NCBI GenBank assembly: GCA_030523645.1
Contig: JAUNIB010000001.1
Location: forward strand, 124,001-188,000
Origin: Selenomonadaceae bacterium
GTDB lineage: Bacteria > Bacillota > Negativicutes > Selenomonadales > Selenomonadaceae
Direction of reading: 5' to 3'
DNA: 64,000 bases
A program made the position numbers and the translations under genes. The notes under the pieces were generated by a model. The model worked only from the letters and a program-made list of their open reading frames with translations, was not told where the DNA came from and did no database searches. Of the stretch, positions 4,564-60,120 are shown piece after piece (position 1 is the stretch's first letter; each line of letters starts with the position of its first letter).

Positions 4564-4584
4564 AATCTGTATATTTTTATAACA

Positions 4585-16247: not shown

Positions 16248-16371
16248 GGTATCATCTCCAAATATAATAAATTATCCTCAATAGGGCAAAAATGCCCGAT
16301 TGACTAATCTCTTATATACTATAATAAGACTTGTGATGAGGCAAGAGTCAATAAGAGAAAGAAGGATAAAA

Positions 16372-44488: not shown

Positions 44489-44634
44489 GGTACAATTTGA
44501 CCGTAAAATAAAAAATCCCAGAGAAATCGTCAAAAATCTGTCTTACGATAGCCTTTGGCTACGGTCAAATGTAATTGTTACCCGGATACAATTTTTAATT
44601 GTACCTTTTTTGCAGTCTTCCGTTGTGTTATATT
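44489..44634 (+). promoter_or_regulatory. amt1 promoter with direct-repeat operator
   Basis: AATTGTTACC (44573) and AATTGTACC (44597-44605) are direct repeats starting 24 bp apart; the -10 box TATATT is at 44629-44634, 32 bp after the proximal repeat start. There is no good -35 hexamer (TTTTTT), pointing to activation. Inverted half-sites GGTACAATT (44489) and GGATACAATT (44584) are also present. Same architecture as upstream of amt2, tRNA-Pyl and mtmC. Confidence 0.75.
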
Positions 44635-44734
44635 TTTCTTCAGAAATAAAGAAATGCTGCTGCATAAACTAAGCAATGTCGCTCTGTTTGCCGTACTGGC
44701 GGACGGAGCTTTTTCTTTTGGAGGCAGCGAAAGG

Positions 44735-45985
44735 ATGAGTGAAATGAATGGGAGCAATGTAAATTATGTGGATGTAGGTTATGTAGCCTTTGCCACTCTG
44801 ATGGTGTTTTTTATGACGCCGGCACTTGGCTTCTTTTACGGAGGCATGGTGCGGCGCAAGAATGTACTGAATACAATTATGATGTCTATGGCGGCTATCG
44901 GAATCATAGGCCTGCAGTGGACACTTTATGGTTATTCTCTCTCGTTCAGCGGAGACTTTGGCGGCATCATTGGAGATTTCGGATGGGCGGGACTTCAGGG
45001 AGTAGGATTGAAGCCGAATCCTGACCTTTGTGCTGGACTGCCGCATTTGGAATTTGCCGTTTTTCAGATGATGTTTGCGGTAATTACGGCAGCTATTATC
45101 AGCGGCTCCATCGCGGAGCGAGTAAATTTCTATGCCTACTGTCTTGTTATTCTGTTATGGACGACCTTGGTATACGACCCTCTTTGCCACATGGTCTGGA
45201 ACAGCAATGGAATAATTTATCAGTTGGGAGCCATGGACTTCGCCGGAGGTACGGTTATCCATATATCCTCCGGCGTGTCCGGACTGGTGGCTGCCCTTTA
45301 TCTGGGGACACGCCGCAACTATGGTCGTATGAATGTGGCTCCTCATAATGTTCCTTATATTATCCTCGGCGGAAGCATTATATGGGCTGGATGGTTTGCC
45401 TTCAATTCCGGCTGTGCGCTTGGTGCAAATGAAATTATGGTATTGGCTTTGGCTAATACAGCAGTTTCCTCTATGGCCGGTATGGTTACATGGATGCTGC
45501 TGGATAAGATGGTACACGGAAACATGACACTCTTCGGCTCTCTTACCGGCGGCGTAGCCGGACTGGTAGGAGTAACGCCGGCAGCTGGCTTTATCGAAGT
45601 CTGGGCCTCCACCTTTATTGGAATTATTACTGCCATCGCCTGCTTCGTGGCTATTTCCTACGTAAAAGAGCACTTCGGCTACGACGATTCCCTTGACGCT
45701 TTTGGCTGCCACGGAGTTGGCGGTATCTGTGGTGCTATGCTGACCGGTGTATTTTCTACGAAGCTGGTAAATCCGGAAGGCTTTGACGGACTTCTCTACG
45801 GAAATCCCGGACAGCTTATTCCGCAGGGCGTCAGCGTGCTGGTAGCTATCATGATGGCGGTGGTGATGATGCCGCTGATTTTGAAGCTGGTGAGCTTCGT
45901 TGTACCGCTCAGGGTATCCGAGGAAACCGAGAAGGCAGGACTTGACCTGATACAGCATCACGAGACGGCTTATTCCAAGATGTAA
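44735..45985 (+). CDS. amt: Amt/Mep/Rh ammonium (methylammonium) transporter 1
   Basis: 416 residues from ATG 44735 (GGAGG 10 nt upstream; the longer frame would run through the promoter). Eleven membrane segments. Signatures: FFMTPALGFFYGGMVRRKNVLN, IISGSIAERVNFYAY, MDFAGGTVIHISSGVSGLVAALYLG, and twin-His pore histidines in VIHIS and GCHGVGG. Amt channels also carry methylammonium; with mtmBC in the same putative regulon I infer methylamine uptake or recapture of released ammonium. Followed after 12 bp by a PII gene. Confidence 0.94.
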   Translation: MSEMNGSNVNYVDVGYVAFATLMVFFMTPALGFFYGGMVRRKNVLNTIMMSMAAIGIIGLQWTLYGYSLSFSGDFGGIIGDFGWAGLQGVGLKPNPDLCAGLPHLEFAVFQMMFAVITAAIISGSIAERVNFYAYCLVILLWTTLVYDPLCHMVWNSNGIIYQLGAMDFAGGTVIHISSGVSGLVAALYLGTRRNYGRMNVAPHNVPYIILGGSIIWAGWFAFNSGCALGANEIMVLALANTAVSSMAGMVTWMLLDKMVHGNMTLFGSLTGGVAGLVGVTPAAGFIEVWASTFIGIITAIACFVAISYVKEHFGYDDSLDAFGCHGVGGICGAMLTGVFSTKLVNPEGFDGLLYGNPGQLIPQGVSVLVAIMMAVVMMPLILKLVSFVVPLRVSEETEKAGLDLIQHHETAYSKM

Positions 45986-45997
45986 GGGGGAGAAAAA

Positions 45998-46369
45998 ATG
46001 AGCAACGCAGGAAAGATGTACAAGGTGGATATTATCACTCGACGGGAGAAGCTGGACGACCTGAAGGAAGCGCTGATAAGCATCGGTGTCACCGGCATGA
46101 CGGTTTCTGATGTTTACGGCTGCGGATTGACCTCCGGCCATACGGAGATTTATCGCGGCAACAGCGTGGAGGTCTCCCTGATGCCGAAGATAAAGGTGGA
46201 AACGGTAATCTATGAGACTCCGCTGGAGGAGCTGATAGCTACAGCAGAGAAAGCCTGCTATACCGGCCGCATCGGCGACGGAAAGATTTTCGTCTATGAG
46301 GTAGCGAGAGCCGTAAAGATTCGCACCGGTGAGCGTGACGGTGAGGCGATAGTGGACTATCACGAATAA
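45998..46369 (+). CDS. glnB: PII nitrogen regulatory protein 1
   Basis: 123 residues. PII signalling trimer that gates Amt channels in response to ATP/ADP and 2-oxoglutarate. T-loop region TSGHTEIYRGNSVEVSLMPK and C-terminal signature TGRIGDGKIFVYEVARAVKIRTGE are present. The usual Tyr51 uridylylation site is absent (YRGNSVEV), so control would be by ligands only. 94-96% identical at the protein level to the second copy at 47822. Confidence 0.94.
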   Translation: MSNAGKMYKVDIITRREKLDDLKEALISIGVTGMTVSDVYGCGLTSGHTEIYRGNSVEVSLMPKIKVETVIYETPLEELIATAEKACYTGRIGDGKIFVYEVARAVKIRTGERDGEAIVDYHE

Positions 46370-46371
46370 AC

Positions 46372-46463
46372 GGATACAATTCCTCCTGAAAAAAGAGCAA
46401 CCATTGTTCTATAAAAAGAAAAAATAATTGTAGCTTTTGTCCGGTTACTAACATGGGTATAAT
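46372..46463 (+). promoter_or_regulatory. amt2 promoter with direct-repeat operator
   Basis: CATTGTTCT (46402-46410) and AATTGTAGC (46426-46434), 24 bp apart; TATAAT at 46458-46463, exactly 32 bp after the proximal start. An inverted half-site GGATACAATT lies at 46372-46381. Weaker repeat match than at tRNA-Pyl or mtmC, but identical geometry. The transcript would start near 46470 and lead into amt2. Confidence 0.65.
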
Positions 46464-46558
46464 CTCAACCATGGTAAATGCATTTATTAAGGACAACGGC
46501 GTCATTGGCAGCAGTCTGCTGTCAGTGGCGTCATTTTTTTTGACAGGGGGAGATAGCT

Positions 46559-47800
46559 ATGGACTATGTAGCAATGCTGACAAAAGAAAATGCTTATATG
46601 CTGAACTCAATTTGGGTTCTGTGTGCGGCGGTGTTTGTCTTCTTTATGCAGGCGGGATTCGCTTGCATGGAAAGTGGTTTTTCCCGGAGCAGGAACGCCT
46701 GCAACATCTGGCTGAAGAACTTATGTGATTTCTGTATCGGTGCACTTGTTTATTATGTTGTCGGTTTCGGTATCATGTACGGCGATGATTATCACGGATT
46801 GATAGGCATCAACGGTTTTATTGACCCGCTGGCTCAGAAGCTGCAGGTTTGGGAAGGACTCAATCTTTCCAAGGAAATTTTCCTGCTCTATCAGACCATG
46901 TTCTGTGCCACTACCGCGACGATTATTTCCGGCTCTGTAGCAGAGCGATTCAAGTTTAATTCTTATCTTGTGGTCAGTGCGGTGATGACCGGCCTTATTT
47001 ATCCGGTGGTTGGTCATTGGATTTGGGGCGGCGGCTGGTTGTCTGAACTGGGATTTTCTGATTTTGCCGGTTCCACAGCAGTCCATTTCGTCGGTGCCTG
47101 TGCAGCCTTCATGGGAGCCTATATGGTCGGTCCTCGTATCGGTAAGTACAGAGACGGTAAGCCTCGGGCCATTCCCGGACACAACATTCCCATGGGTATC
47201 CTCGGCGCACTTATTCTGTGGTTCGGCTGGTACGGCTTCAATCCCGGCTCCGAGCTTGCTCTCGATGAGACAACCTTCTACACCACTGTTACAACCACCC
47301 TTACCGCTGCCGCAGGCGGTATTGCCGGACTGGTCACAAGCTGGATAAGGTTTAAAAAGCCGGACCCCACGCTGGCGGCCAACGGTGCGCTGGCTGCACT
47401 GGTAGGAATCTGCACCGGTGTAGCAGAGGTAAGTCCTTTCGGGTCTATTGCCATCGGTCTGATTTGCGGCACGCTGATTTGCTTCACCTTGGAATTTGTT
47501 GACCACAAGCTTCACATTGATGACCCGGTAGGTGCCATTTCGCTTCATGGCGGCAGCGGTGCCGTAGGTACTCTGTTGGCAGCGCTCTTCAGCATGGAAA
47601 AAGGACTTTTCTACGGTCACGGCACTGACTTCCTAGTTTCCCAGCTCATCGGTGTCCTGTCCGTCACCGCATTCTGCGCTGTTACTACCTTTATCCTTTA
47701 CAAGGCGCTGGCGCTGACTGTTGGCATAAGGGTATCCGAGGAAGAAGAGCTTGCCGGTCTCGATGTTCAGGAGCACGGCATGAACGCTTACAACGGCTGA
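46559..47800 (+). CDS. amt: Amt/Mep/Rh ammonium (methylammonium) transporter 2
   Basis: 413 residues, GGGGGA ahead of the ATG. Signatures: FVFFMQAGFACMESGFSRSRNACNIWLKNLCDF, TTATIISGSVAERFKF, GFSDFAGSTAVHFVGACAAFMGAYMVGPR and ISLHGGSGAVGTLLAALF with the second pore His. Clearly a different Amt subfamily from amt1, so not a recent duplicate, although the PII genes after the two are nearly identical. Possible division of labour between ammonium and methylammonium. Confidence 0.94.
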   Translation: MDYVAMLTKENAYMLNSIWVLCAAVFVFFMQAGFACMESGFSRSRNACNIWLKNLCDFCIGALVYYVVGFGIMYGDDYHGLIGINGFIDPLAQKLQVWEGLNLSKEIFLLYQTMFCATTATIISGSVAERFKFNSYLVVSAVMTGLIYPVVGHWIWGGGWLSELGFSDFAGSTAVHFVGACAAFMGAYMVGPRIGKYRDGKPRAIPGHNIPMGILGALILWFGWYGFNPGSELALDETTFYTTVTTTLTAAAGGIAGLVTSWIRFKKPDPTLAANGALAALVGICTGVAEVSPFGSIAIGLICGTLICFTLEFVDHKLHIDDPVGAISLHGGSGAVGTLLAALFSMEKGLFYGHGTDFLVSQLIGVLSVTAFCAVTTFILYKALALTVGIRVSEEEELAGLDVQEHGMNAYNG

Positions 47801-47821
47801 GATTAAAGGGGGAATATGGAT

Positions 47822-48193
47822 ATGTCAAATGCAGGAAAAATGTATAGAGTTGATATTATTACCCGGCGGGAAAAGCTGGATGATCTGAAGGAGGCCCTGA
47901 TAGGCATCGGCGTTACCGGAATGACGGTTTCGGATGTATACGGCTGCGGCCTGACCTCCGGTCACACGGAGATTTATCGCGGTAACAGCGTGGAGGTTTC
48001 GCTGGTGCCAAAGATAAAGGTGGAAACAGTAATCTATGAGACTCCGCTGGAGAAGCTGATAGAAACCGCTGAGAAAGCCTGCTGCACCGGACGAATCGGC
48101 GACGGCAAGATATTTGTCTATGAGGTGGCCAGGGCAGTGAAAATCCGCACAGGAGAGCGGGATGGCGAGGCTATTGTGGATTATCACGAATAA
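47822..48193 (+). CDS. glnB: PII nitrogen regulatory protein 2
   Basis: 123 residues from ATG 47822 (GGGGGA at the right distance; the ATG at 47816 is too close). Differs from copy 1 at about six residues (for example K9R, S28G, M62V, A81E, Y88C), while the DNA differs at many silent sites. T-loop lacks Tyr51 as in copy 1. Follows amt2 and ends 42 bp before the repeats of the tRNA-Pyl promoter. Confidence 0.94.
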   Translation: MSNAGKMYRVDIITRREKLDDLKEALIGIGVTGMTVSDVYGCGLTSGHTEIYRGNSVEVSLVPKIKVETVIYETPLEKLIETAEKACCTGRIGDGKIFVYEVARAVKIRTGERDGEAIVDYHE

Positions 48194-48213
48194 ACGCAGC
48201 GGAGAGGCGTTAA

Positions 48214-48296
48214 AATTGTCACTTTGAGGATACAAAATTGTACCCCTCACATAACAGAAAATTGTACCTTGCAATTATGGCAATGGCTGATATAAT
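48214..48296 (+). promoter_or_regulatory. tRNA-Pyl promoter with direct-repeat operator
   Basis: AATTGTACC at 48236-48244 and at 48260-48268, perfect copies 24 bp apart; TATAAT at 48291-48296 (31 bp after the proximal start). TTGCAA (48269-48274) serves as -35 with a 16-bp spacer. A third partial copy AATTGTCAC begins at 48214. The inverted GGATACAA (48228) abuts the distal copy. Confidence 0.8.
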
Positions 48297-48324
48297 AAAG
48301 CTATCAGTTACCAATCCCATACAT

Positions 48325-48393
48325 GGAGGATAGATCGTAGTGATCATAAGGTCTCTAAAACCTTACAGGCGGGTGCGACTCCCGCATTCTTCG
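48325..48393 (+). tRNA. pylT: tRNA-Pyl (anticodon CUA, amber suppressor)
   Basis: Full cloverleaf drawn by eye. Acceptor GGAGGAT pairs with ATTCTTC (48386-48392, two G-U pairs), one base (A) before the D-stem, D-stem GATC/GATC with a 5-nt loop, 6-bp anticodon stem TAAGGT/ACCTTA with loop CTCTAAA and anticodon CTA at 48355-48357, 3-nt variable loop, T-stem GCGGG/CCCGC with loop TGCGACT. The single base between acceptor and D-stem, the short D-loop, long anticodon stem and non-TTC T-loop are the hallmarks of pyrrolysine tRNA. Discriminator G; CCA is not encoded (GCAA follows). Confidence 0.95.
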
Positions 48394-48405
48394 CAAGTTA
48401 CAAAA

Positions 48406-48450
48406 ACCAAAGGCGTTTTTTGAAAAATTTCGCCTTTGGTTTTTTTATTT
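48406..48450 (+). terminator. Terminator between tRNA-Pyl and the pyl operon
   Basis: ACCAAAGGCG (48406-48415) / CGCCTTTGGT (48431-48440) and a long T-run. It should separate the tRNA transcript from the next gene unless read-through occurs; no clear separate promoter for 48473 was found. Confidence 0.85.
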
Positions 48451-48472
48451 TACTCTTGAAAGAGGTCAATAT

Positions 48473-49237
48473 ATGACAGAAGAAGTTTTACGGGTAAATG
48501 TTGAAGAGTTGTACGAGAGTGCCGCTGCCTACCTGGATATTATTTGCGGATTGCAGCGAAAGGGAAAGATGGCGGCCAGAAGCCGGCAGCTGGCAGAAGA
48601 AATAAAAAATGAATTGTTCAATGGAACTCAGCTTGAGGTGCTGATGCAGCGCTTCGGCAGAGATGAGATAGAGCCGGAAGGATTCAATTTTGCCGGACAA
48701 CGTATTGCCTGCAGCTCATTGAAGACAGTCAGCCGTCAGCATATTCTGGCCGGCTATGCCGTCCTCCTGCGTTCGCCGATGCCGGATATATCTCAGCTGC
48801 CAGTCAGCAAAATGTATCTGGCCGACTCATGGGAAACAAGCCTTGTTGATGCCGGCAGGGACTATCTGAGGCCCTGGCTGCTGGAGAGAGAGACAGAAAG
48901 GCTTGGGCAGGAGCTTTACATTTCCGATACGCTGGCTCCTGGAATGGCGGGTATGCCTTCAGACTGCATCAGAAGCTTCTTCGGTTTTATGGACGGTTCC
49001 CGGGTAGGGGTCAGCCTGACCAGGAGCGGCATGATGAATCCGGTAAAGAGCTTTGTCGGTATCTATCTTCTGCTGGACAGGCAGGAGGTAATCAGAACCG
49101 CCAACTGCGGAGAATGTGCCTCTCAGGGTAAAACCTGCGCCTATTGCAAGGATTTTGCTCAGCGTCATTTCGGCGGAGATTTTGAGCCGGAGCTGCAGCG
49201 GGCAGACAAGACGCTGTTGGGCCAATGGCGGTCATAA
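48473..49237 (+). CDS. Corrinoid methyltransferase-associated protein, methionine-synthase activation-domain-like
   Basis: 254 residues. The segment DTLAPGMAGMPSDCIRSFFGFM ... RVGVSLTRSGMMNPVKSFVGIYLLL matches the SAM-binding activation domain of B12-dependent methionine synthase. C-terminal Cys-rich tail NCGECASQGKTCAYC could bind a metal or FeS cluster. Proteins of this type accompany corrinoid methyltransferases and their ferredoxin-type activators; a role in reactivating MtmC is inferred. AGAGGT precedes the ATG. First gene of the pyl operon, 13 bp before the RACo-like gene. Confidence 0.75.
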   Translation: MTEEVLRVNVEELYESAAAYLDIICGLQRKGKMAARSRQLAEEIKNELFNGTQLEVLMQRFGRDEIEPEGFNFAGQRIACSSLKTVSRQHILAGYAVLLRSPMPDISQLPVSKMYLADSWETSLVDAGRDYLRPWLLERETERLGQELYISDTLAPGMAGMPSDCIRSFFGFMDGSRVGVSLTRSGMMNPVKSFVGIYLLLDRQEVIRTANCGECASQGKTCAYCKDFAQRHFGGDFEPELQRADKTLLGQWRS

Positions 49238-49249
49238 GGAGTCAAATAT

Positions 49250-50959
49250 ATGATTACGGTAAATTTTGTACAGGAAAATAAGAAAATAGAAGCAAGACCG
49301 GGTATCAGCATTGCGGCATTGGCCCGGCGAGCAGGCGTATTCATGGAGACTCCCTGCGGAGGCGGCGGTACCTGCGGCAAGTGCAAGGTCAAGGTAGTAA
49401 GCCGGGTAGGACAGCCTAAGACGGCGCCTGTTTATGAGCGAGGCAAGTCCACGCTGCGAGGTGGCGCCTGGTCGCTGGACAGCTTTTCTGCCGCAGTTCA
49501 GGGCGGTGTCGTGCTGGCCTGTCAGACGAGAGTTTACGGTGATATAGATGTTTATACTTCTGTGGATACCGAGGCCAACAAGACAATGCAGATTCTCAAT
49601 GAGGGTACGGAGCTTGGACTGACACTGAAGAACGCCTACAGCAAGATTTACCGGCAGGAAAGCGATGTGACCGAGGTGCAGGCAGACGGGAAAGCTGTCT
49701 GTGAGGAAAGAGGTGATACCGCCGATCAGAACTACGGCGTGACAATAGATATCGGTACGACAACTCTGGTGGCGGCACTGCTTGATATGACCACCGGTCG
49801 GGAAATTACCACCGCCTCCGCTCTCAATCCCCAGTGCGCTTATGCGCAGGATGTAGTCAGCCGCATCAACTATGCGGCAAATAATGATGGCGGTCTGGAG
49901 CTTCTATATACCGCAGTTCGGGATGAGTTTAACCGGCTGATTGGAGAGCTGTGCAGGGAGACTGGAATAAGCCGGCAGCATATTTATGAGGTCTCCTATG
50001 CCGGCAATACCACCATGCTGCATCTGGCTACAAATACTGATCCGTACTCATTGGGACGGTACCCGTACACTCCGGCAATTACCGGCGGAAATACGATTCC
50101 TGCGGCAGAGGCCGGACTTGATATATCTCCTGCCGGCCGCGTTTACCTGCCGCCGGTTATTTCAGCCTATGTAGGGCCGGATATTACGGCAGGTGTGCTG
50201 TCATCGGGACTTTATCAGGCAAAGAAAAAAATATTGTTCCTCGATATCGGTACAAACGGAGAGATGGTTCTGGCGGCGGATGGGAAAATGACTGCCTGCT
50301 CCACAGCAGCCGGCCCGGCCTTTGAAGGAATGAACATTACTTTCGGTATGCGGGCAGGAAACGGAGCCATAGAATATTTTTCTTTAAATGATGATAAGGT
50401 CGAGCTGCGGACCATTGGCGGCAAAGCACCGAAAGGAATCTGCGGCAGCGGACTGTTTGACATTGCCGGCGAGCTGGTTAAGGCCGGAATAATCGAGAAG
50501 AGCGGCCGCCTGCAGAAAAAGGAAAAATGTACCTCGGCACTGGCGGAGCGTCTGACAAAATACGAAGGAAAAAGTGCCTTTATGGTCGCAGAGGGAGTCT
50601 ATTTGACTCAGGCCGATATTCGGCAGATTCAGCTGGCAAAGTCAGCTATCCGGGCCGGTATAGAGGCCATGCTTGGACTGAATGAGCTGCGGACTGATGA
50701 CCTGGATGAGGTTTATATTGCCGGAAGCTTTGGTTATCATCTTCGTCCGCAGAGTCTGGTGAACATAGGAATAATTCCGCCGGAGCTGCAGGAGAAAATA
50801 AAATTTGTGGGCAATACTTCAAAGACCGGCGGAAATGCCTTCCTCATAAACACGGATACCCGAAACTTGATGAAGGAGCGGGTACAGCAGATACAGTCAC
50901 TTGAGCTTTCGGATTACCCCGGTTTTGAGGCCCTGTTTGTAGAGAAAATGAGTTTCTGA
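49250..50959 (+). CDS. RACo-type reductive activator of corrinoid proteins (2Fe-2S ferredoxin + ASKHA ATPase)
   Basis: 569 residues. N-terminal 2Fe-2S ferredoxin domain: Cys36, Cys42, Cys45 in ETPCGGGGTCGKC and Cys91 in GGVVLACQTRV. A linker, then the ASKHA (DUF4445) ATPase: GVTIDIGTTTLVAALLDMTTG phosphate 1, SYAGNTTMLHLAT, KILFLDIGTNGEMVLAADGKMTACSTAAGPAFEG phosphate 2, GICGSGLFDIAGELV and VYIAGSFGYHL. Members use ATP to reduce Co(II) of inactive corrinoid protein, the bacterial counterpart of RamA. Its target here is almost certainly MtmC. Stop lies 18 bp before pylB. Confidence 0.9.
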   Translation: MITVNFVQENKKIEARPGISIAALARRAGVFMETPCGGGGTCGKCKVKVVSRVGQPKTAPVYERGKSTLRGGAWSLDSFSAAVQGGVVLACQTRVYGDIDVYTSVDTEANKTMQILNEGTELGLTLKNAYSKIYRQESDVTEVQADGKAVCEERGDTADQNYGVTIDIGTTTLVAALLDMTTGREITTASALNPQCAYAQDVVSRINYAANNDGGLELLYTAVRDEFNRLIGELCRETGISRQHIYEVSYAGNTTMLHLATNTDPYSLGRYPYTPAITGGNTIPAAEAGLDISPAGRVYLPPVISAYVGPDITAGVLSSGLYQAKKKILFLDIGTNGEMVLAADGKMTACSTAAGPAFEGMNITFGMRAGNGAIEYFSLNDDKVELRTIGGKAPKGICGSGLFDIAGELVKAGIIEKSGRLQKKEKCTSALAERLTKYEGKSAFMVAEGVYLTQADIRQIQLAKSAIRAGIEAMLGLNELRTDDLDEVYIAGSFGYHLRPQSLVNIGIIPPELQEKIKFVGNTSKTGGNAFLINTDTRNLMKERVQQIQSLELSDYPGFEALFVEKMSF

Positions 50960-50977
50960 CGGGATGAGGGAATGAAA

Positions 50978-52066
50978 ATGAATGAGCTGAGCAATATACT
51001 GAGCCGGGCAGAGGCGGGAAATGCACTCACCGATGAAGAATTGGGTCTGCTTTTGGAGCTGACGGACGAAGGAGAGCGGGAGCTGCTTTTTCAGGCAGCC
51101 CGTCGCCTCCGTGAGAAGAATTTCGGGCAAAAGGTTTTTCTCTACGGCTTTGTTTATTTTTCAACATACTGCCGCAATAAATGCCGGTTTTGTTATTATC
51201 GCTGTGCCAACGGGCAAAGTCCCCGCTATCGGAAGAGTTTGCCGGAGATTTTGGAAATCGGAACGGCACTGAAGGAGTCGGGCATTCATCTCCTTGATTT
51301 GACGATGGGTGAAGACCCCTTGTATCTGTCAAATGGAGATGAGGGGCATGAAAGACTGATAGAGATATTCCGGGAAGTAAAAAAGGCGACTAATCTGCCG
51401 CTGATGGCATCGCCGGGTGTAGTACCGGATGATGTGGTGCTGAAGCTGAAGGAGGCAGGAGCAGACTGGTACGCACTCTATCAGGAGACACATTCCCGTA
51501 CTCTGTATGATACTTTGCGGACGGAACAGCCTTATGAAGACCGCTGGCACGCCAAGTGCTTTGCCCGGGATAACGGGATGCTGATAGAAGAGGGACTGCT
51601 GACGGGGATAGGGGACAGCACGGCTGACCGGGTTTATTCTCTGAGGGAAATGCAGAAGCTGGGTGCTTCTCAGGTACGCACCATGACCTTTGTGCCGCAG
51701 GCGGGTACGCCGCTTGGCAGCCTGATTCCTCAGGGCAGTACCCGGGAGGTAAATCTTATTGCGGTACTTCGGCTTCTTTTCCCCGATGCTCTTATTCCGG
51801 CTTCTCTCGATGTAGAAGGAGCAGGCGGCCTGAAGGCGCGGATGCAGGCAGGGGCTAATGTCGTAACTTCTATAATCCCCCCTCAGGCCGGATTGGCGGG
51901 AGTCGCTCAGGCGGAGCAGGATATCGCTGACGGCGGACGCACGGTGGCAGGAGTGAAGCCTCTGCTTGAAGAGGTGGGTCTGGAGCCGGCGTCGGCAGGA
52001 GAATACGCCGATTGGATAGCTCGCAGGAAGGCACTCATGATGGAAAGGGGGAGCGGGAGTCTATGA
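50978..52066 (+). CDS. pylB: 3-methylornithine synthase PylB
   Basis: 362 residues from ATG 50978, favoured because GAGGG (50966-50970) is 7 nt away; the ATG at 50972 is too close. Radical SAM enzyme that rearranges lysine to (3R)-3-methyl-D-ornithine, the first step of pyrrolysine synthesis. CxxxCxxC cluster in YFSTYCRNKCRFCYYRCANG (Cys65, 69, 72), then a TIM barrel: LLDLTMGEDPLY, DWYALYQETHSRTLYDTLR, VRTMTFVPQAGTPL, ASLDVEGAGGLKARMQAGANVVTSIIPP. The biotin-synthase-like family includes BioB, but the neighbours settle it. Overlaps pylC by 4 bp. Confidence 0.95.
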   Translation: MNELSNILSRAEAGNALTDEELGLLLELTDEGERELLFQAARRLREKNFGQKVFLYGFVYFSTYCRNKCRFCYYRCANGQSPRYRKSLPEILEIGTALKESGIHLLDLTMGEDPLYLSNGDEGHERLIEIFREVKKATNLPLMASPGVVPDDVVLKLKEAGADWYALYQETHSRTLYDTLRTEQPYEDRWHAKCFARDNGMLIEEGLLTGIGDSTADRVYSLREMQKLGASQVRTMTFVPQAGTPLGSLIPQGSTREVNLIAVLRLLFPDALIPASLDVEGAGGLKARMQAGANVVTSIIPPQAGLAGVAQAEQDIADGGRTVAGVKPLLEEVGLEPASAGEYADWIARRKALMMERGSGSL

Positions 52067-53223
52067 AAAAAGTATTGGTTTTGGGCGGAAAGCTGCAGGG
52101 TGTGGAAGCGGCTTACCTTATGAAGAAGGCTGGCTGGCATGTGACGATAGCTGACCGCAATGCCCGCTGTCCGGCAGCTCAGCTGGGAGATGCCTTCCTG
52201 CAGATGAATTTTATGGAGGATGACAGGCTGGAGACCGCGATGAAAGAGGCAGATTTCATCATTCCGGCCCTTGAAAAGCTCTATGTGCTTGAGCGAATAG
52301 CGAAGGCTGCGGAGGAATGCAAGGTTCCAATCATGTTCAATCTGGATTCCTTCCGGATATCTCATTCCAAGCTGCGTTCGGACAGGCTCTTTGCGAAGAT
52401 TGGGGTACCGGCTCCGAAGCCGTGGCCGGAATGCGGACTGCCGGTAATCATAAAGCCTTCGGGCCGAAGCGGCAGCGAAGGCGTGCGCCTTATGAGCACG
52501 GAGGAAGAACTGCAGAAATGGAAGCAGGCGGCCCTTACCAGAGCCGATTGGGTGGTACAGGAATATCTGAGCGGCCCGTCCTATTCCATCGAAATAATCG
52601 CCAAGAAGGGCGAGATGAAAACCTTTCAGGTGACAGAGCTGGAAATGGACCGCCGTCACGACTGTAAGCGAGTCCTCTGTCCCAGCCTGCTGCCTCGGGA
52701 AAAGGAACTGGAATTTACAGAGATTGCCGGTCAGCTGGCCGCTGCTGTGGAGCTGGACGGAATCATGGATGTAGAAGTAATTCTGAACAAAAATCAGCTG
52801 AAGGTATTGGAGATAGACGCCCGACTTCCCAGTCAGACACTTACCGCCGTGTACAACTCAACCGGAGTGAATGCACCTGCTGTTTATGCCGATGGCCTGC
52901 CGCCGGGAGAAATGGCCATGTTCACGCAGTCTGAAGGAGTGGGCGTGATTTATGAGCATATCGAGGTTCGGGGCCGTCGCCTGCGTACTGCCGGTGAGCA
53001 TATTATGGGCGGTCACGGCCCCCTGAGCCTGGTAGAAAATTTCTTCGGTGCCGATGAGGCTATCACCAATTACAAGCCGGGGAAGAACAGCTGGGTAGCA
53101 ACCCTGATAATGAAGGATACAGACCGGAAGGCCGTCTGGGCAAAGCATGAGCGGGTAATAAAGAACATCATGGAAGCAAACGGCTTGTGGGACTATGATG
53201 ATTACGGACTGGAGGAGATGTGA
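52063..53223 (+). CDS. pylC: 3-methylornithine--L-lysine ligase PylC
   Basis: 386 residues from ATG 52063, 4-bp overlap with pylB (ATGA) and GGGGGAGCGGGAG upstream. ATP-grasp amide ligase joining 3-methylornithine to the epsilon-amine of lysine. N-terminal Rossmann-like VLVLGGKLQGVEAAYLMKKAGW, FNLDSFRISHSKLRSDRLFAKIGVPAPKPWP, ATP-binding IKPSGRSGSEGVRLMS, VQEYLSGPSYSIEII, and metal-binding VEVILNKNQLKVLEIDARLPSQ. Ends just before pylD. Confidence 0.95.
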   Translation: MKKVLVLGGKLQGVEAAYLMKKAGWHVTIADRNARCPAAQLGDAFLQMNFMEDDRLETAMKEADFIIPALEKLYVLERIAKAAEECKVPIMFNLDSFRISHSKLRSDRLFAKIGVPAPKPWPECGLPVIIKPSGRSGSEGVRLMSTEEELQKWKQAALTRADWVVQEYLSGPSYSIEIIAKKGEMKTFQVTELEMDRRHDCKRVLCPSLLPREKELEFTEIAGQLAAAVELDGIMDVEVILNKNQLKVLEIDARLPSQTLTAVYNSTGVNAPAVYADGLPPGEMAMFTQSEGVGVIYEHIEVRGRRLRTAGEHIMGGHGPLSLVENFFGADEAITNYKPGKNSWVATLIMKDTDRKAVWAKHERVIKNIMEANGLWDYDDYGLEEM

Positions 53224-53225
53224 TC

Positions 53226-54062
53226 ATGAGCAGACTGACACCGCAGGATATAGAGCATGTAAAGGCAATGCTGAAAAAGCATGATGAGGAGTTGAGAGCT
53301 CAGACCGGCACGGGATTGCTGGGTATCGCAGCCGAAGCGGCAGGACTCTCTGAGAGCCAGCTTGCAGCGATGGTAGCGGAGACTCGTATAGGAGTGGTTC
53401 CGCTTACTACCGGATTGGGAATTATAAGCGGCTTCAGTGACACGGTACAGGCGATTCTGTCTTTTGTCGGAGCGGACGCTTTTGTCACCGCAGCCACTGA
53501 TGTAGCCGGCATAAATGAAGCCATGGCCGCCGGTGTAAAGCAGATATTTATGGCCGATGACCTTACCTGCAGCCTGATGGATTTGCAGACCCGCTGCACC
53601 GCCGACAACGGAATCGCTACCGGACGCGGCTTCGGGGCAGCACTGGCATTGGCGGCTAAGGATATAAAGGGGAAAAAGGTGGTTGTACTGGGTGCCGGGC
53701 CGGTCGGCCGGTCGGCTGTCTATTTCTTCCTCAGCAAGGGAGCCGAGGTGGTTCTCTACGATAAAAATCCGGTCTGCCTCGCCCGGATGAAGGATGTGCC
53801 GGGGGTGACACTGGCCGCTGACGGCAGCGAAGCACTGGCTGCCGGGAATCTGTACTTTGAGGCAACTACTGCCCGGGATACCATAACTATGGCAGACATG
53901 AGCGAGGATACCATTGCTTCGGCACCGGGGATTCCGCTTGGCATTAGCGATGATGCAATGAAAAAATACGGGCAGCAGGTCATTCAGGATCCGCTGGAGC
54001 TTGGCGTAGCGTCAATGCTTTCCTGCCTTTTGGCAAAGGCGGCAGGCAAAGCCCTGAAATGA
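53226..54062 (+). CDS. pylD: Pyrrolysine synthase PylD
   Basis: 278 residues from ATG 53226 with GGAGGAG upstream (a GTG at 53220 overlaps pylC but is less well placed). NAD-dependent dehydrogenase that oxidises the ornithine end of the dipeptide, after which it cyclises to pyrrolysine. Rossmann motif KKVVVLGAGPVGRSAVYFFLSKGAEVVLYDKNP, N-terminal LTPQDIEHVKAMLKKHDEELRAQTG, and VPLTTGLGIISGFSDTVQAI. Followed by pylSn after 10 bp. Confidence 0.95.
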   Translation: MSRLTPQDIEHVKAMLKKHDEELRAQTGTGLLGIAAEAAGLSESQLAAMVAETRIGVVPLTTGLGIISGFSDTVQAILSFVGADAFVTAATDVAGINEAMAAGVKQIFMADDLTCSLMDLQTRCTADNGIATGRGFGAALALAAKDIKGKKVVVLGAGPVGRSAVYFFLSKGAEVVLYDKNPVCLARMKDVPGVTLAADGSEALAAGNLYFEATTARDTITMADMSEDTIASAPGIPLGISDDAMKKYGQQVIQDPLELGVASMLSCLLAKAAGKALK

Positions 54063-54072
54063 GGTGTTGGCT

Positions 54073-54393
54073 GTGTCTGAACAAAAGAAGCGGTATGTCT
54101 ATAAAAAGCAGGATTTGTTTCAGCTAATTGACAAAATTAAGCTCTGGCCGGCTCGTTCGGGACTGCTCCACGGAGTCAAAAGTATCGAATACCGGGGAGA
54201 ATCCATGATTATCACGACTCATTGCGGCGAAAGCTTCGTCCAGTGGGATTCCCGCCACAGCAGGAGCGCCCGTTGGCTGCGAAACCGCTGGTGTAAATGC
54301 CCCTGTCCCAGGTGCAAGGTGCCGGACTGGAAGCTGGAAAAATATTCCCACACAGTATTTTCCGATAGCAGGAGGTACGCAAATGGAAAATGA
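54073..54393 (+). CDS. pylSn: Pyrrolysyl-tRNA synthetase N-terminal subunit PylSn
   Basis: 106 residues from GTG 54073 (GAGG 54061-54064, 8 nt ahead). tRNA-Pyl-binding domain, a separate gene in bacteria and fused in methanogens. Zinc-binding cluster WCKCPCPRCKVPDW and Arg-rich DSRHSRSARWLRNRWC are visible. It overlaps pylSc by 11 bp, indicating coupled synthesis of the two subunits. Confidence 0.92.
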   Translation: MSEQKKRYVYKKQDLFQLIDKIKLWPARSGLLHGVKSIEYRGESMIITTHCGESFVQWDSRHSRSARWLRNRWCKCPCPRCKVPDWKLEKYSHTVFSDSRRYANGK

Positions 54394-55243
54394 ATACGGA
54401 CTGAAATATATATATACAGCAGCACAGAAAAACCGGCTGTCAGAGCTGGGCATAGACCGGAGCATTCTGGAGAGGGAATTCAGTACGACTGCCCGCCGTG
54501 ACGGAAGCTTTCGGGAGCTGGAGAGCAGGGCGGTAAAGGAAAACCGGACAAGACTCAGCAGACTTATGCAGGAGACTCACAGACCATCGCTCTGCAGTCT
54601 GCAGGAATCTTTGGCAGCGGCCCTCTGCCAGGCGGGTTTTACTCAGGTGGTTACGCCGACACTGGTTTCGGCTCAGATGCTGGAAAAGATGACCATCACC
54701 CCGGACAATCCGCTTTACGAGCAGGTCTTCTGGGTGGACAAAAAAACAGCGCTGCGGCCTATGCTGGCACCCAATCTCTACGAGGTGTCCCGACAGCTTA
54801 TTCAGAGTCAGAGCCTTCCCCTGCGAGTTTTTGAGATAGGCTCCTGCTTCCGCAAGGAATCTGAGGGACGCTCTCATCTGAAGGAATTTACCATGCTGAA
54901 TCTGGTAGAATGGGGGACTCCTCTGGAGAAACGGAATGAGGTGCTGAAGGAGTTTGCCGACCTGGTGATGAAGGCGGCAGGTATTGATGACTACCGTCTG
55001 GAGGAGGAAAACTCCGTAGTATACGGCGATGGACTGGATGTAGTCACTCCTGACGGACTGGAGCTGGCCTCCACCTCGATGGGCCCTCATCCGCTGGATG
55101 ATGCGTGGAGAATAACCTGCAGCTGGTTTGGTCTCGGCACCGGACTGGAGCGCCTGCTGATGCACCGGGAAAAGACTGCCGGCATTCACTGCTGGGGCAG
55201 GAGTACGGTGTTTTTGGACGGAGCCTGTATGAAACTGAAATGA
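54383..55243 (+). CDS. pylSc: Pyrrolysyl-tRNA synthetase catalytic subunit PylSc
   Basis: 286 residues, class II synthetase core charging tRNA-Pyl with pyrrolysine. Substrate-pocket segments: RPMLAPNLYEVSRQL (motif 2 loop), ESEGRSHLKEFTMLNLVEWG (conserved Asn; Cys348 of the archaeal enzyme is Val here as in other bacterial enzymes), VVYGDGLDVVTPDGLELASTSMGPH and motif 3 GLGTGLERLLMHREK. Confirms the island decodes UAG. Next gene, the regulator, starts 25 bp later. Confidence 0.95.
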   Translation: MENEYGLKYIYTAAQKNRLSELGIDRSILEREFSTTARRDGSFRELESRAVKENRTRLSRLMQETHRPSLCSLQESLAAALCQAGFTQVVTPTLVSAQMLEKMTITPDNPLYEQVFWVDKKTALRPMLAPNLYEVSRQLIQSQSLPLRVFEIGSCFRKESEGRSHLKEFTMLNLVEWGTPLEKRNEVLKEFADLVMKAAGIDDYRLEEENSVVYGDGLDVVTPDGLELASTSMGPHPLDDAWRITCSWFGLGTGLERLLMHREKTAGIHCWGRSTVFLDGACMKLK

Positions 55244-55268
55244 TACCCTTAGACAAGGGGAGAGAACG

Positions 55269-56687
55269 ATGATAAAGCTGGATAAAAATAAACGGGTACC
55301 GTTATACGAGCAGCTGTATCGCGAGCTTCGGAAAAATATTATCTCCGGCACTTATGAAAAGGATTATCGTCTGAAACCTATCCGGGTGTTTGCAAAGGAG
55401 CTTTCCGTAAGCATCAATACAGTAAATCGGGCATATCAGCAGCTGCTGGAGGAGGGCTACATTACCTCCAGTCAGGGCAGCGGCTTCTATGTTGAGGAAA
55501 TGTTTACCATCAAGGGTGACAAAAAGACTCTGTATAAGCAGAACGGAACGGCAGAGGAGAGCAGGAAAGCGGCAGATGTGCGGTTCGATTTCAGCCGCAA
55601 AAAGCTGGGAGCGGAAAGCTTTCCCTGGGGGAAATGGCTTCGCTATGTGCAAAACGCTATTGTTGATCTTGCCTATAAGGACTCCATCAAGGACGGCACC
55701 AGCAAAGGCAGTCGGAAGCTGCGTCAGGCCATTGCGGACTACATAAGGGGAACCAGAGGTGTTAAATGCACGGCTGACCAGGTAATAGTCTGCCCCACCA
55801 CCGAACACGCAATGGAAATCATCACCCATGTCCTGCCGGCGGATAAACGCAAGCTGGGGATGGAGGAGCCGGGCTCCGTGAAAATGCGGCAGCTGTTCAG
55901 CTCCCGGGGGATGGAGATTCAGCCGGTGCCGGTAACTAATCACGGGATAGATGTGAACGCTTTGGAGCATATGGACTGCGACTGTCTTTATGTGACACCG
56001 TCCTTTCAGTTTCCAACCGGAGTGCAGCTGCCGCTGGTGAAGCGCCTGCAGCTTATAGAGTGGTGCCGCCGCCGCGGAGCGTACTGTATAGAAAACGACT
56101 ACGAAAACGAATTCCTTTTGGGCAGCGAGCCGGTGATGTCTCTCCAATCGCTGGACAGCAATGAGCGGGTCATCTTCGTCAGTACCTTTTCCACCGTGCT
56201 TTCGCAGGAGATTAAAAGCGCATTTTTAGTTCTTCCTTTACCGCTGGTAAAGGTCTACGAGGAAAAATACAAGTATTACCGCTCGGCGATATCCGACTAC
56301 GAGCAAAAGGCATTGACCGCCTTTATCAAAGACGGACAGCTGGAACGCCAATCCCGTAAGGCGGCGGTACTAAACCGCCGAAAGAAGGAATTCTTCTTCC
56401 GCTATGCAGAGGAAAACATGACGGATATAGCCGCCTGTCTGCCCTGTGAGTCCGGCAGCCATTATCTGCTGGGACTCTATGACTGCGTTGACGCAGACGG
56501 CGTCGTGCGCCGGCTGGCAGATAGGGGTATTATCATCGCCTCTGTTACGGAGTGTTGGCAGGACAGGGAATCAGCTCCCCGCAACCTCGTTATGCTCAGC
56601 TTTAACAGCATAAGAGAGAATGAGCTGGAAAAGGCCTGCCGCTACATGGAAACGGAATTGCGGAGCGTTCTCAGGCGCAAGGGCTGA
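55269..56687 (+). CDS. MocR-like GntR/aminotransferase-fold regulator lacking the PLP lysine
   Basis: 472 residues. N-terminal GntR winged helix: VPLYEQLYRELRKNIISGTY, RVFAKELSVSINTVNRAYQQLLEEGYI, SSQGSGFYV. Residues about 105-465 are an aminotransferase-like fold: VIVCPTTEHAMEIITHVL, LYVTPSFQFPTGVQLPLVKRLQLIEW, IENDYENEF. The PLP-lysine segment of MocR proteins (GTFSKxL) is STFSTVL here, with Thr309 instead of Lys, so the covalent PLP link cannot form; a His in the TPSxQFPTG motif is also Phe. Likely senses another ligand. It is the only regulator in the island and MocR proteins bind direct repeats, so it is my candidate for the 24-bp-spaced AATTGTACC sites. Confidence 0.85.
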   Translation: MIKLDKNKRVPLYEQLYRELRKNIISGTYEKDYRLKPIRVFAKELSVSINTVNRAYQQLLEEGYITSSQGSGFYVEEMFTIKGDKKTLYKQNGTAEESRKAADVRFDFSRKKLGAESFPWGKWLRYVQNAIVDLAYKDSIKDGTSKGSRKLRQAIADYIRGTRGVKCTADQVIVCPTTEHAMEIITHVLPADKRKLGMEEPGSVKMRQLFSSRGMEIQPVPVTNHGIDVNALEHMDCDCLYVTPSFQFPTGVQLPLVKRLQLIEWCRRRGAYCIENDYENEFLLGSEPVMSLQSLDSNERVIFVSTFSTVLSQEIKSAFLVLPLPLVKVYEEKYKYYRSAISDYEQKALTAFIKDGQLERQSRKAAVLNRRKKEFFFRYAEENMTDIAACLPCESGSHYLLGLYDCVDADGVVRRLADRGIIIASVTECWQDRESAPRNLVMLSFNSIRENELEKACRYMETELRSVLRRKG

Positions 56688-56706
56688 AACAAGTGAAAAC
56701 ATGAAA

Positions 56707-56768
56707 CACTGTACCCTGAGTAAAATTCGGAATTGTACCTTTACCCAGGTTCATTTCCCCGATATAAT
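56707..56768 (+). promoter_or_regulatory. mtmC promoter with direct-repeat operator
   Basis: CACTGTACC (56707-56715) and AATTGTACC (56731-56739), 24 bp apart; TATAAT at 56763-56768, 32 bp after the proximal start. Weak -35 (TTTACC) suggests a need for an activator at about -40. Confidence 0.78.
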
Positions 56769-56824
56769 TCAGCCATAGCTTGAAACAACTCCAAGCAAAA
56801 CTAGATAAGTCAGGACAAAGACGT

Positions 56825-56858
56825 CCCATACGGCCTTAAGGCTGTATGGGATTTTATT
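56825..56858 (+). promoter_or_regulatory. Leader hairpin before mtmC, possible attenuator
   Basis: CCCATACGGCCT (56825-56836) / AGGCTGTATGGG (56839-56850) with TTTT-rich downstream (ATTTTATTGTT). It lies inside the transcript that starts near 56775 and ends about 38 nt before the start codon, so it could terminate early or protect the mRNA. Confidence 0.5.
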
Positions 56859-56887: not shown

Positions 56888-57547
56888 ATGACTAAGGAAG
56901 AAATTTATGAGCAGCTGAAAACGGCAGTAACAGAGATGGATTCTGATATGGCTGAGGAGGCAGCAAATGCCGCTCTCGAGACTGGTCTGGATCCGCTGGA
57001 GTGCATCTCTGAGGGCCTCTCTGCAGGAATGCAGGTAATGAGTGACCTCTTTGATGAAGGTGAAGCTTTTGTACCGGAGCTCCTGATGGCTGCTGAAGCA
57101 TTTGAGTCCGCTACCGGCATTCTTACCGGCAGCCTCTCCGATGAGGAAAAAGCCAGTGTTAAGGAAGGCAAGGTCATCCTTCACACTGTTGAGGGTGACA
57201 TCCACGATATCGGCAAGAACATCGTTAAGACCCTGTTTGTTGCCAATAACTTCGAAGTATTTGACCTCGGCCGCGATGTTCCTGTAGAAGAAGTCATCAA
57301 GCAGGCTGAGAAGAACAGCGTAGACATCATCGCCGGCGCTGCTCTCATGACCACCACGATGCCCTCCCAGCGTGATGAAATCAAGCTGCTTAAAGAGGAC
57401 GGCATCCGCGACAAGTACATCTGCATGTACGGCGGCGCTCCGGTTTCTGCCGAGTGGTGCGAGTCCATCGGTGCTGATGCTTATGCAGATACCGCTACCG
57501 AGGCTGTAGTCATCGCCAAGAAGCTTCTGGCAGAGAAATCCGCCTAA
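56888..57547 (+). CDS. mtmC: Methylamine corrinoid protein MtmC
   Basis: 219 residues. Carries the methyl group from methylamine on its corrinoid. N-terminal helical cap about 1-90 (LLMAAEAFESATGIL), then a B12-binding Rossmann domain with the DxHxxG signature at Asp104-His106-Gly109 in EGDIHDIGKNIV, later IIAGAALMTTTMPSQRDEIKLL and CMYGGAPVSAEWCESIGADAYADTATEAVVIAKKLL. GGAGG is 9 nt before the ATG. Followed by mtmB after 64 bp, as in Methanosarcina. Confidence 0.94.
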   Translation: MTKEEIYEQLKTAVTEMDSDMAEEAANAALETGLDPLECISEGLSAGMQVMSDLFDEGEAFVPELLMAAEAFESATGILTGSLSDEEKASVKEGKVILHTVEGDIHDIGKNIVKTLFVANNFEVFDLGRDVPVEEVIKQAEKNSVDIIAGAALMTTTMPSQRDEIKLLKEDGIRDKYICMYGGAPVSAEWCESIGADAYADTATEAVVIAKKLLAEKSA

Positions 57548-57611: not shown

Positions 57612-59003
57612 ATGAATGCGGTTGCAAGAAATGTGACGGTATACGATGTATACGACCGAGCAAAAAGCGGCCCAAAGATGGATGAAAAGAAGTGGGACTT
57701 TGAAGTAATCCCTCAGACCGCCAAGGCACTGAAGAAAAAGTATGGTATCAAGATGGACAAGAAGACCATTATCCCTGAGGATAAAGACCTCATCGATAAG
57801 CTCTTCCAGGCCGGTCTGGAAATGCTGGAGACCTGCGGTGTCTACTGCATTGATACTGGCCGTGTTATCAAGTACACCCGTGATGAAATCCTCCATGCCA
57901 TTCATTCGGCACCGGATCACTTCACCTACGGCGAAGGAGCAGAGGCTCACTACATCACCCCGCGCTCCTATGATTCCAAGAAACCTCCTATTATTCAGGG
58001 CGGCCCCACCGGCTCCCCCTGCTCCGAGGAAAACTTCCTCGCTATCCATCAGGCCTATGCTCAGGAGCCTATCGTTGACACTATCGTTGACGGTGTCCTC
58101 CAGACTGTAAACGGCCATGATCCCCAGCCCGGCACCCCCTGGGAGCTGATGGCTGTACGCTCCGAAGCCCTGCAGATTCGCGAGGCTATGATGAGGGCCG
58201 GCAGAACCGGCATGGGCCTTTAGGGGAATGAAACCAGCCTGAGTGCAGCAGGTGTCATCGAAGCCGATTTCAACGGCGGTATGAGACCTGATGACTCCCA
58301 CGAGGTTTCGCAGCTCAACGAGCTCAAGATCGACGTAAGCGCATTGTGTGTAGGTGCACACTATGCTCTTGCAGGCGTAAATGTCATGGTAGAGCAGATG
58401 CCTATCTACGGCGGCTACGCTGGCGGTCTTGAGGAGACTACCATCGTTGATATTGCTACAACCTTGAACTCCTTCGTCATGATGCAGGGAACCTGGCATC
58501 TGGACGGCCCGGTACACGTTCGCTGGGGCATTACAACTTCGAGAGAGGCTCTTGCAGTTGCTGCTCACGCCTGCCGTGCAGTTGAGGCCAACACCCACTT
58601 GATGCTTGGCAACCAGTATTATACGATGGCTGGCCCCTGTACGGTAATGTGCCTGCTTGAGACTGCTGCTCAGGCAATCACCGATACCTGCTCCGGCCGT
58701 GAAATCCTTTCCGGCGTTGCTGCCTGCAAGGGCGTAACCACTGACCTCTTCACCGCCATGGAGGCACGCATGATGGGCGAGACCGCTCATGCCTGCGCCG
58801 GCATGGACACCCATGAGGCCAATGTACTGCTGGATAAGCTGGTAAGCATGTACGAGAAGGATTACAAGACCGCACCTCGCGGCAAAACCTTCCCTGAGTG
58901 CTACGATGTAAAGACTCTCACTCCCTCTGAGGAATATGTAGAGGTTTACAACGAAGCAGTGAAGATTCTTACAGACCTCGGCTTGACCTTCTGGAATAAA
59001 TAA
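57612..59003 (+). CDS. mtmB: Monomethylamine methyltransferase MtmB with in-frame UAG (pyrrolysine)
   Basis: 463 residues when UAG at 58221 is read as pyrrolysine (residue 204; archaeal MtmB is 458 residues with pyrrolysine at 202). Before: QGGPTGSPCSEENFLAIHQAY and GRTGMGL. After: GNETSLSAAGVIEADFNGGM, SHEVSQLNELKID, EQMPIYGGYAGGLEETTIVDI, TWHLDGPVHVRWGITT, LGNQYYTMAGPCTVMCLLETAAQAITDT and ECYDVKTLTPSEEYVEVY to TAA. Both halves align with MtmB and the frame does not break. MtmB moves the methyl of monomethylamine to Co(I)-MtmC, releasing ammonia. AAGGAAG precedes the ATG. It is MtmB, not the dimethyl- or trimethylamine enzyme, whose UAG sits much nearer the C-terminus. Confidence 0.95.
58221..58223 (+). 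other. Recoded amber codon in mtmB
   Basis: TAG between GGC-CTT and GGG-AAT in frame; residues on both sides match MtmB without a gap. No special hairpin needed in bacteria was identified after it. Confidence 0.92.
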
Positions 59004-59100: not shown

Positions 59101-60120
59101 ATGTACTTTAATATGGATGAATGGTCACAGGAAATTATTGACGCTAAGGATAGAAGGGTGCTGCCGGTTTTATACTTCCCCTGTCTGCCGCTTACTCCCT
59201 ATGGCGTAATTGAGACCGTAAACGACGGTAAGAAGATGGCTGAGGCCATGAAGGCTACCGTTGACAAATACCCCACCATGATTTGTGCTATGACCGGCAT
59301 GGATCTTTCCGTAGATTCCGAAGCCTTCGGTGCCAAGGTCAGCTTCAAGGAAACTGAAGCTCCCTGCGTCCGTGATGCGCTCATTTCTACGGAAGAGGAC
59401 ATCGGTAATCTGGTAGTGCCTGATGTTCATGCAGGCCGTGTAGATGTATTCCTTGATGCTATTGTTGAAGCTCAGAAGCTCATAACCGACCGTCCTATCT
59501 TCGGCGGACAGTTTGGCCCCTTCTCCCTTGCGGCTAACCTGCTGGAGGTACAGTCGGCTCTCATGATGAGCATTAAGAACCCGAAGGCTATGCTCAAGCT
59601 TTTGGATAAATGCACCGACTTCCTCATTAAGCGCGCACTGGAGTACAAGAAGGCCGGCGCAAACGGCATCTTCATGGCAGAGCCTACTGCAGGCCTGCTG
59701 GCTCCGCGTATGCTGGAAAAATTCTCCTCTGTATTTGTAAAGAAGATTGTTGACGCTGTACAGGACAGCTCCTTCTATGTCATTCTTCACGACTGCGGCA
59801 ATGTAACCAAGTCCGTCAAGTCCATGTACAACACCGGTGCTAAGGGTCATCACTACGGCAATGCTGTAAACATGGAGGACATTCTCCCGCAGATTCCGCC
59901 CGACATTCTCGTATTCGGCAATATCGACCCCTCCACTGCATTCTTCTCCGGCACTCCGGAAAGCATGCGTGAAAAGACTATGGCACTGCTTGAATCTATG
60001 AAGGACTACCCGCACTTTGTTCTCTCCTCCGGCTGTGACCTGGCTCCGATGGTAAAGATGGATGTCATCGACGCATTCTTCGATGCCTGCAAGGAGTACA
60101 ACGATAAGCTCGGCGTCTGA
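59101..60120 (+). CDS. MtbA/MtaA-like corrinoid methyltransferase (uroporphyrinogen decarboxylase fold)
   Basis: 339 residues. Zinc ligands of the methylcobamide methyltransferase group: His230-x-Cys232 in VILHDCGNVTKS and Cys312 in VLSSGCDLAPMV. Other blocks: PIFGGQFGPFSLAANLLEV and FGNIDPSTAFFSGTPE. In methanogens such proteins methylate coenzyme M. This bacterium has no CoM pathway in view, so the acceptor may be tetrahydrofolate or another thiol; I cannot tell. Located last in the mtmC operon, so it should accept the methyl from MtmC. Confidence 0.85.
   Translation: MYFNMDEWSQEIIDAKDRRVLPVLYFPCLPLTPYGVIETVNDGKKMAEAMKATVDKYPTMICAMTGMDLSVDSEAFGAKVSFKETEAPCVRDALISTEEDIGNLVVPDVHAGRVDVFLDAIVEAQKLITDRPIFGGQFGPFSLAANLLEVQSALMMSIKNPKAMLKLLDKCTDFLIKRALEYKKAGANGIFMAEPTAGLLAPRMLEKFSSVFVKKIVDAVQDSSFYVILHDCGNVTKSVKSMYNTGAKGHHYGNAVNMEDILPQIPPDILVFGNIDPSTAFFSGTPESMREKTMALLESMKDYPHFVLSSGCDLAPMVKMDVIDAFFDACKEYNDKLGV

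Follow-up and report, generated by a model that had tools for sequence, protein, structure and literature searches.

How is the reading of UAG as pyrrolysine switched on together with methylamine use in bacteria? This question is raised by a gene cluster in a 64,000-nt stretch of a Selenomonadaceae bacterium (GCA_030523645.1, contig JAUNIB010000001.1, 124,001-188,000, forward strand; hereafter the window). Its predicted genes encode monomethylamine use and include two Amt-GlnK channel pairs, tRNA-Pyl (pylT), the pyl genes, a MocR-type regulator (55269-56687; hereafter the 55269 protein), and mtmC, mtmB, and mtbA. Four promoters in this cluster share a pair of direct boxes, and sequence comparison makes it likely that these pairs form an operator at which the 55269 protein acts as activator of a monomethylamine/pyrrolysine regulon, its own gene included as part of the pylT operon. 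The protein would thereby probably switch on this genetic-code expansion. The boxes point to it because they are absent elsewhere in the genome and recur beside the same regulator gene in two other bacteria.

Paired boxes at four promoters

The promoters of amt1, amt2, pylT, and mtmC all carry two AATTGTACC-like 9-bp boxes whose starts lie 24 bp apart, and their -10 hexamers (TATATT at amt1, TATAAT at the other three) begin 32, 32, 31, and 32 bp, respectively, after the start of the proximal box. The positions, pair spacing, and -10 offsets given in the original prediction are thus correct on reading the sequence. Its claim of a shared repeat stands insofar as the repeat is present at all four promoters, but only four of the eight boxes are perfect copies of AATTGTACC, the others matching 6-8 of 9 positions, with the weakest pair at amt2. 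Across the nine promoters that carry the pair in this and two related genomes, the -35 hexamer invariably starts directly 3' of the proximal box (offset 9 from the box start, 9/9), and spacers of 16, 17, or 18 bp give -10 offsets of 31, 32, or 33 bp. The conserved distance is from box to -35, not from box to -10. The -35 hexamers match the consensus at 2/6 positions for amt1 and amt2 and at 4/6 for pylT and mtmC. An inverted box (GGATACAA on the plus strand) accompanies the pair at amt1, amt2, and pylT; the window has one further copy.

To score these sites, a box matrix was trained solely on the two related genomes, G423 (a Lachnospiraceae metagenome-assembled genome, 3.2 Mb) and G473 (a second Lachnospiraceae genome), and combined with a generic sigma-70 -10 element at 31-33 bp; as the training boxes had been found via the window consensus, this score is independent only as regards -10 offset and exclusivity. 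This foreign-trained matrix ranked the four sites first in the window, at 39.3, 32.2, 31.3, and 26.3 bits, with the next position at 16.9 bits, and under a second-order Markov null none of 15.3 million positions attained the 26.3 bits of the weakest site. Searched genome-wide with up to three mismatches, the pair alone yielded 140 matches against 320 for a reversed control; since this was no better than background, the -10 was added to the pattern. The resulting composite (box pair plus TATAAT, ≤3 mismatches, offsets 31, 32, and 33) occurs in the bacterium's own 2.3-Mb genome at exactly four promoters, those of amt1, amt2, pylT, and mtmC. Reversed-pattern composites numbered zero in all three genomes, and in each of them the true composite hardly occurs outside the methylamine/pyl cluster. 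This genome-wide scan is the check that the original prediction had named, with scattered matches as its refutation; such matches are absent, and the confinement supports its proposal of one regulon uniting channel, tRNA, and methyltransferase genes.

We give practically no weight to the idea that the boxes are a chance set drawn from AT-rich promoter sequence. The amt2 pair by itself would fit it, being at background level (~3.6 expected per genome) and significant only with its TATAAT, but all four sites were recovered out-of-sample, are exclusive genome-wide, and recur in two genomes; for the four-site set, a chance origin is already refuted. Several isolated matches were set aside. A one-mismatch pair at C9:487034 was rejected, as it has no -10 and is oriented against the propionate-pathway genes that flank it, and lone three-mismatch composites on G473 contigs C17 and C22 and G423 contig C105 were taken as chance, the one on C17 preceding a YihY-like gene.

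A MocR-type protein linked to the boxes

Relatives were sought across 1,979 genomes overall, a MocR protein search leading to G423 and a PylS search in the same family to G473. In G423 (loci L024 and L080), the MocR orthologue is 54% identical to the 55269 protein and the gene order is mtmC-mtmB(TAG)-pylT-orf254-ramA-pylBCD-pylS-mocR-mtbA; the whole 3.2 Mb holds only two pairs with ≤1 mismatch, at pylT and mtmC, and a weaker box pair precedes mtbA. In G473, the orthologue is 43% identical and located after pylS, and a divergent mtmC/methyltransferase region carries two perfect composites, with AATTGTATC pairs in both directions, 24 bp apart and followed by TATAAT exactly 32 bp on. All nine true sites score between 25.9 and 40.0 bits. 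Conversely, no composite exceeded 18.2 bits in 42 pylS loci (646 kb) for which a search of at most ~10 kb on each side did not reveal this MocR, and two further pylS loci showed neither this MocR nor the boxes. The three MocR proteins group in one clade (support 100/100) that excludes all other MocR proteins in the comparison, and the pair co-occurs with this clade in 3/3 genomes. The boxes and the protein also appear to vary together, in that G473 has a variant box, TTGTATC, and a changed MocR recognition helix (NTVSKVY versus NTVNRAY). The 55269 protein had been named as the candidate regulator at the outset, and this choice gains support from its orthologues after pylS in both box-carrying relatives and from the failure to find them at the 44 box-less loci. 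A plasmid search for the MocR gene returned nothing beyond 29% identical paralogues. Amt-type channel genes adjoin mtmC in eight loci from other bacteria of this class, all without this MocR (L105, L107, L112, L116, L118, L119, L121, and L122), so the association of channels with monomethylamine genes extends beyond the boxes.

The 55269 protein combines an N-terminal GntR winged helix-turn-helix (PF00392, E 2.6e-12, residues 12-75) with a C-terminal class I aminotransferase-like domain (PF00155, E 1.8e-9) that also aligns with GabR, and its best solved relatives are the MocR-type protein 7pq9 (E 9e-66) and GabR 4n0b (E 3e-57). The lysine that binds pyridoxal 5'-phosphate (PLP), part of the GabR segment FSK, is replaced in FST by Thr309; it is Asn in G423, retained in G473, and present in every other aligned MocR protein except one. 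The GabR segment SLR aligns with EIK, exchanging arginine for lysine. Because the PLP lysine is replaced by Thr or Asn, these lysine-less proteins probably form no usual internal aldimine, and we place the 55269 protein in the MocR/GabR subfamily on its architecture alone, without implying regulation via a PLP aldimine. An AlphaFold model of it was too poor to use (predicted local distance difference test score 38). Its score of 390 against NCBIfam NF052282 (PdxR) exceeds the cut-off of 320, as would be expected of a PdxR controlling vitamin B6 genes. Such a role is nevertheless very improbable and largely refuted by the confinement of the composite in its own genome to four methylamine/pyl promoters, with no operator at vitamin B6 genes, by the missing PLP lysine, and by orthologues that travel with pyl genes.

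The nearest counterparts among known systems are GabR and other MocR-subfamily activators. According to PMC5320631, MocR operators are typically direct boxes with a TGT/TGG core, with or without an inverted box, the commonest form being two direct boxes and one inverted box; the direct repeats lie a whole number of helical turns apart, and most of the characterised members that the paper lists are activators. Like GabR/MocR activators, the cluster studied here has a two-domain regulator and paired direct TGT-core boxes beside the promoter, joined by an inverted box at 3/4 promoters. It differs from them in the lost PLP lysine and the arginine changed in the aligned segment, in the 24-bp spacing, in a mocR gene that is codirectional and ends the regulated operon, and in its pyrrolysine/methylamine targets rather than GABA (γ-aminobutyric acid), taurine, ectoine, or vitamin B6 genes. 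The regulons named in PMC5320631 concern PLP, GABA, taurine, ectoine, and transporters, with neither methylamine nor pyrrolysine among them, and a literature search gave no paper joining MocR with methylamine or pyrrolysine among the matches listed. What is new relative to MocR regulators is the targets, the absence of the PLP lysine in 2/3 members, and the unusual spacing, while operator style and architecture are known.

Proposed operator function and its alternatives

Under the reading that we favor, a head-to-tail MocR dimer, as expected from family knowledge, would bind both direct boxes, centred near -40 and -64, and recruit RNA polymerase as a class-II-type activator to promoters with poor -35 hexamers. 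We infer activation rather than repression because the boxes are placed against the -35 and the -35 hexamers are weak. The regulon would consist of the two Amt-GlnK pairs, for methylammonium uptake; tRNA-Pyl with ramA and pylBCDS; and mtmCB-mtbA. As mocR is last in the operon starting at pylT, activation would also raise the level of the regulator, creating positive feedback. With methylamine as the presumed signal, cells would restrict the decoding of UAG as pyrrolysine to times of methylamine use.

Several points weigh against this proposal. The pair is present in just three genomes, and since these have related pyl cassettes (PylS identity 68-73%), its conservation is not fully independent; the boxes of the relatives were located using the window consensus, although offset and exclusivity were unselected. 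The mocR gene is not divergent from its targets, unlike many MocR genes, and at 10.5 bp per turn the 24-bp spacing of all nine promoters amounts to ~2.3 helical turns, compared with the whole-turn repeats described in PMC5320631. The pylT promoter (TTGCAA-16-TATAAT with a TG) is fairly good alone and would suit a repressor too, and the boxes could be bound instead by an unlinked regulator.

Repression, in which the 55269 protein would sit against the -35 and leave upon binding methylamine or a product, seems to us clearly unlikely. The abutment of proximal box and -35, the pylT promoter, and the precedent of MocR regulators that repress, such as EnuR (PMC8739950), are all consistent with it. 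Yet both boxes are placed entirely upstream of the -35, always in the same register; amt1 and amt2 have -35 hexamers with just 2/6 matches; and the box-to--35 register is kept in three genomes while the spacer varies, as expected of polymerase contact. Less likely again is control by a factor whose gene lies elsewhere, such as a nitrogen or methyl sensor, with mocR only a passenger of the pyl operon. Amt-GlnK operons are usually under nitrogen control, which would agree with such a factor, and binding of the boxes by MocR is a prediction; against this stand the association of the boxes with this MocR clade in every genome that has them, their absence from the 44 pylS loci searched without finding the clade, the lack of sites outside the cluster in the bacterium's own genome, and a box style that fits MocR (PMC5320631).

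Leader hairpins and gene content

A terminator-like hairpin lies 3' of all nine promoters and before the first reading frame, or after the tRNA in the case of pylT (Table 1). In the 16-kb region, the top three plus-strand terminator-like structures are the amt2, amt1, and mtmC leaders, each between promoter and start codon. Hairpins are likewise found in both G473 leaders and the G423 mtbA leader, that of G423 mtmC being bulged, and by a strict criterion 5/7 protein-gene leaders qualify versus 5/145 upstream regions in other pyl loci. These hairpins are not simply the ends of upstream transcripts, because the two G473 leaders point in opposite directions and, at amt1, the gene upstream has a separate terminator-like hairpin of its own. 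Their placement suggests a second layer of control, by attenuation or antitermination. Comparison of the leaders revealed no common antiterminator or RNA motif and no conserved UAG leader peptide, and an Rfam search of the amt1, amt2, and mtmC leaders gave no convincing family; the sole Rfam match in the window at the gathering threshold is a T-box leader (RF00230) at 4583-4805. Long terminator-like hairpins also occur upstream of mtmC in L112 and L118, both without this MocR, and the mtmC leader terminators may be older than the regulon.

A two-layer gate on the expanded code can be imagined, which we regard as tentative and rather unlikely: the lysine-less MocR would sense methylamine and activate the four promoters, and the hairpins would block leaky transcripts, keeping tRNA-Pyl and the UAG-containing genes silent until an antitermination step also fires. 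Methylamine, a primary amine, could form the PLP imine otherwise formed by the missing lysine. Small amines, methylamine among them, can rescue aminotransferases whose lysine is mutated to alanine, which makes it plausible that a PLP pocket without the lysine could act as a receptor for methylamine.

Among the genes of the cluster (Table 1), the MtmB assignment is backed by PF05369 (E 1e-217). The product of orf254 matches no Pfam family at threshold; a weak match to the methionine synthase activation domain (PF02965) and the similarity of its predicted fold, modelled with moderate confidence, to 1j6r (E 6e-4) give it a likeness to that domain, because of which it probably helps reactivate the corrinoid protein. 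A short cysteine-containing open reading frame between pylD and pylSc (54064-54393) is probably a separate N-terminal PylSn protein.

Table 1 Boxes, promoters, hairpins, and genes of the cluster, in window coordinates unless another locus is named
Feature	Position	Strand	Description
amt1 distal box	44573..44581	+	AATTGTTAC, 7/9
amt1 inverted box	44584..44591	-	between the amt1 boxes; GGATACAA on +
amt1 proximal box	44597..44605	+	AATTGTACC, 9/9; abuts -35 TTTTTT
amt1 -10 box	44629..44634	+	TATATT, 32 bp from proximal box start
amt1 leader hairpin	44681..44719	+	with T-run; upstream of GGAGG ribosome site
amt1	44734..45985	+	ammonium/methylammonium channel; start approximate, set after GGAGG site; listed open reading frame from 44555
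glnK1	45998..46369	+	P-II
amt2 inverted box	46372..46379	-	upstream of the amt2 boxes
amt2 distal box	46402..46410	+	CATTGTTCT, 6/9, weakest
amt2 proximal box	46426..46434	+	AATTGTAGC, 8/9
amt2 -10 box	46458..46463	+	TATAAT
amt2 leader hairpin	46498..46541	+	16 pairs, with T-run
amt2	46559..47800	+	ammonium/methylammonium channel
glnK2	47816..48193	+	P-II
pylT inverted box	48228..48235	-	abuts pylT distal box
pylT distal box	48236..48244	+	AATTGTACC, 9/9
pylT proximal box	48260..48268	+	AATTGTACC, 9/9
pylT promoter	48269..48296	+	TTGCAA-16-TATAAT, TG before -10
tRNA-Pyl	48325..48394	+	anticodon CTA
pylT hairpin	48407..48446	+	with T-run, directly 3' of tRNA-Pyl, before pyl genes; same place in L080
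orf254	48473..49237	+	resembles MetH activation domain; conserved in relatives
ramA	49250..50959	+	RamA/RACo-like corrinoid-protein activase
pylB	50972..52066	+	
pylC	52060..53223	+	
pylD	53220..54062	+	
pylSc	54383..55243	+	pyrrolysyl-tRNA synthetase, catalytic part
mocR	55269..56687	+	MocR-type regulator, GntR winged helix-turn-helix and aminotransferase-like domain, Thr309 replacing PLP lysine; proposed activator
mtmC distal box	56707..56715	+	CACTGTACC, 7/9
mtmC proximal box	56731..56739	+	AATTGTACC, 9/9
mtmC promoter	56740..56768	+	TTTACC-17-TATAAT
mtmC leader hairpin	56823..56856	+	with T-rich tail
mtmC	56888..57547	+	corrinoid protein
mtmB	57612..59003	+	monomethylamine methyltransferase, in-frame TAG at codon 204
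mtbA-like	59101..60120	+	methylcorrinoid methyltransferase
MocR orthologue, L024	10001-11458		
MocR orthologue, L103	~15363-16772		
Hairpin, L103	5065-5096	-	
Hairpin, L103	5339-5375	+	
Hairpin, L080	10055-10084	-	
Hairpin, L080	1130-1160	-	

A precedent for such a switch is Acetohalobium arabaticum, which reads UAG as pyrrolysine only on trimethylamine (PMC8211752, citing Prat et al. 2012). PMC8211752 suggests a trans-acting factor and names no regulator or operator. In both cases bacterial decoding of UAG as pyrrolysine would go with methylamine use; the present one involves other bacteria and monomethylamine, and offers a candidate regulator and operator. With a named candidate protein, a predicted operator, and a full gene set for the pyrrolysine switch, the change of UAG from stop to pyrrolysine in bacteria becomes testable. 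For expanding the genetic code in a controlled way, a methylamine-responsive promoter with its regulator would be useful, and the use of monomethylamine by these bacteria is relevant to how methylated amines turn over in anaerobic communities.

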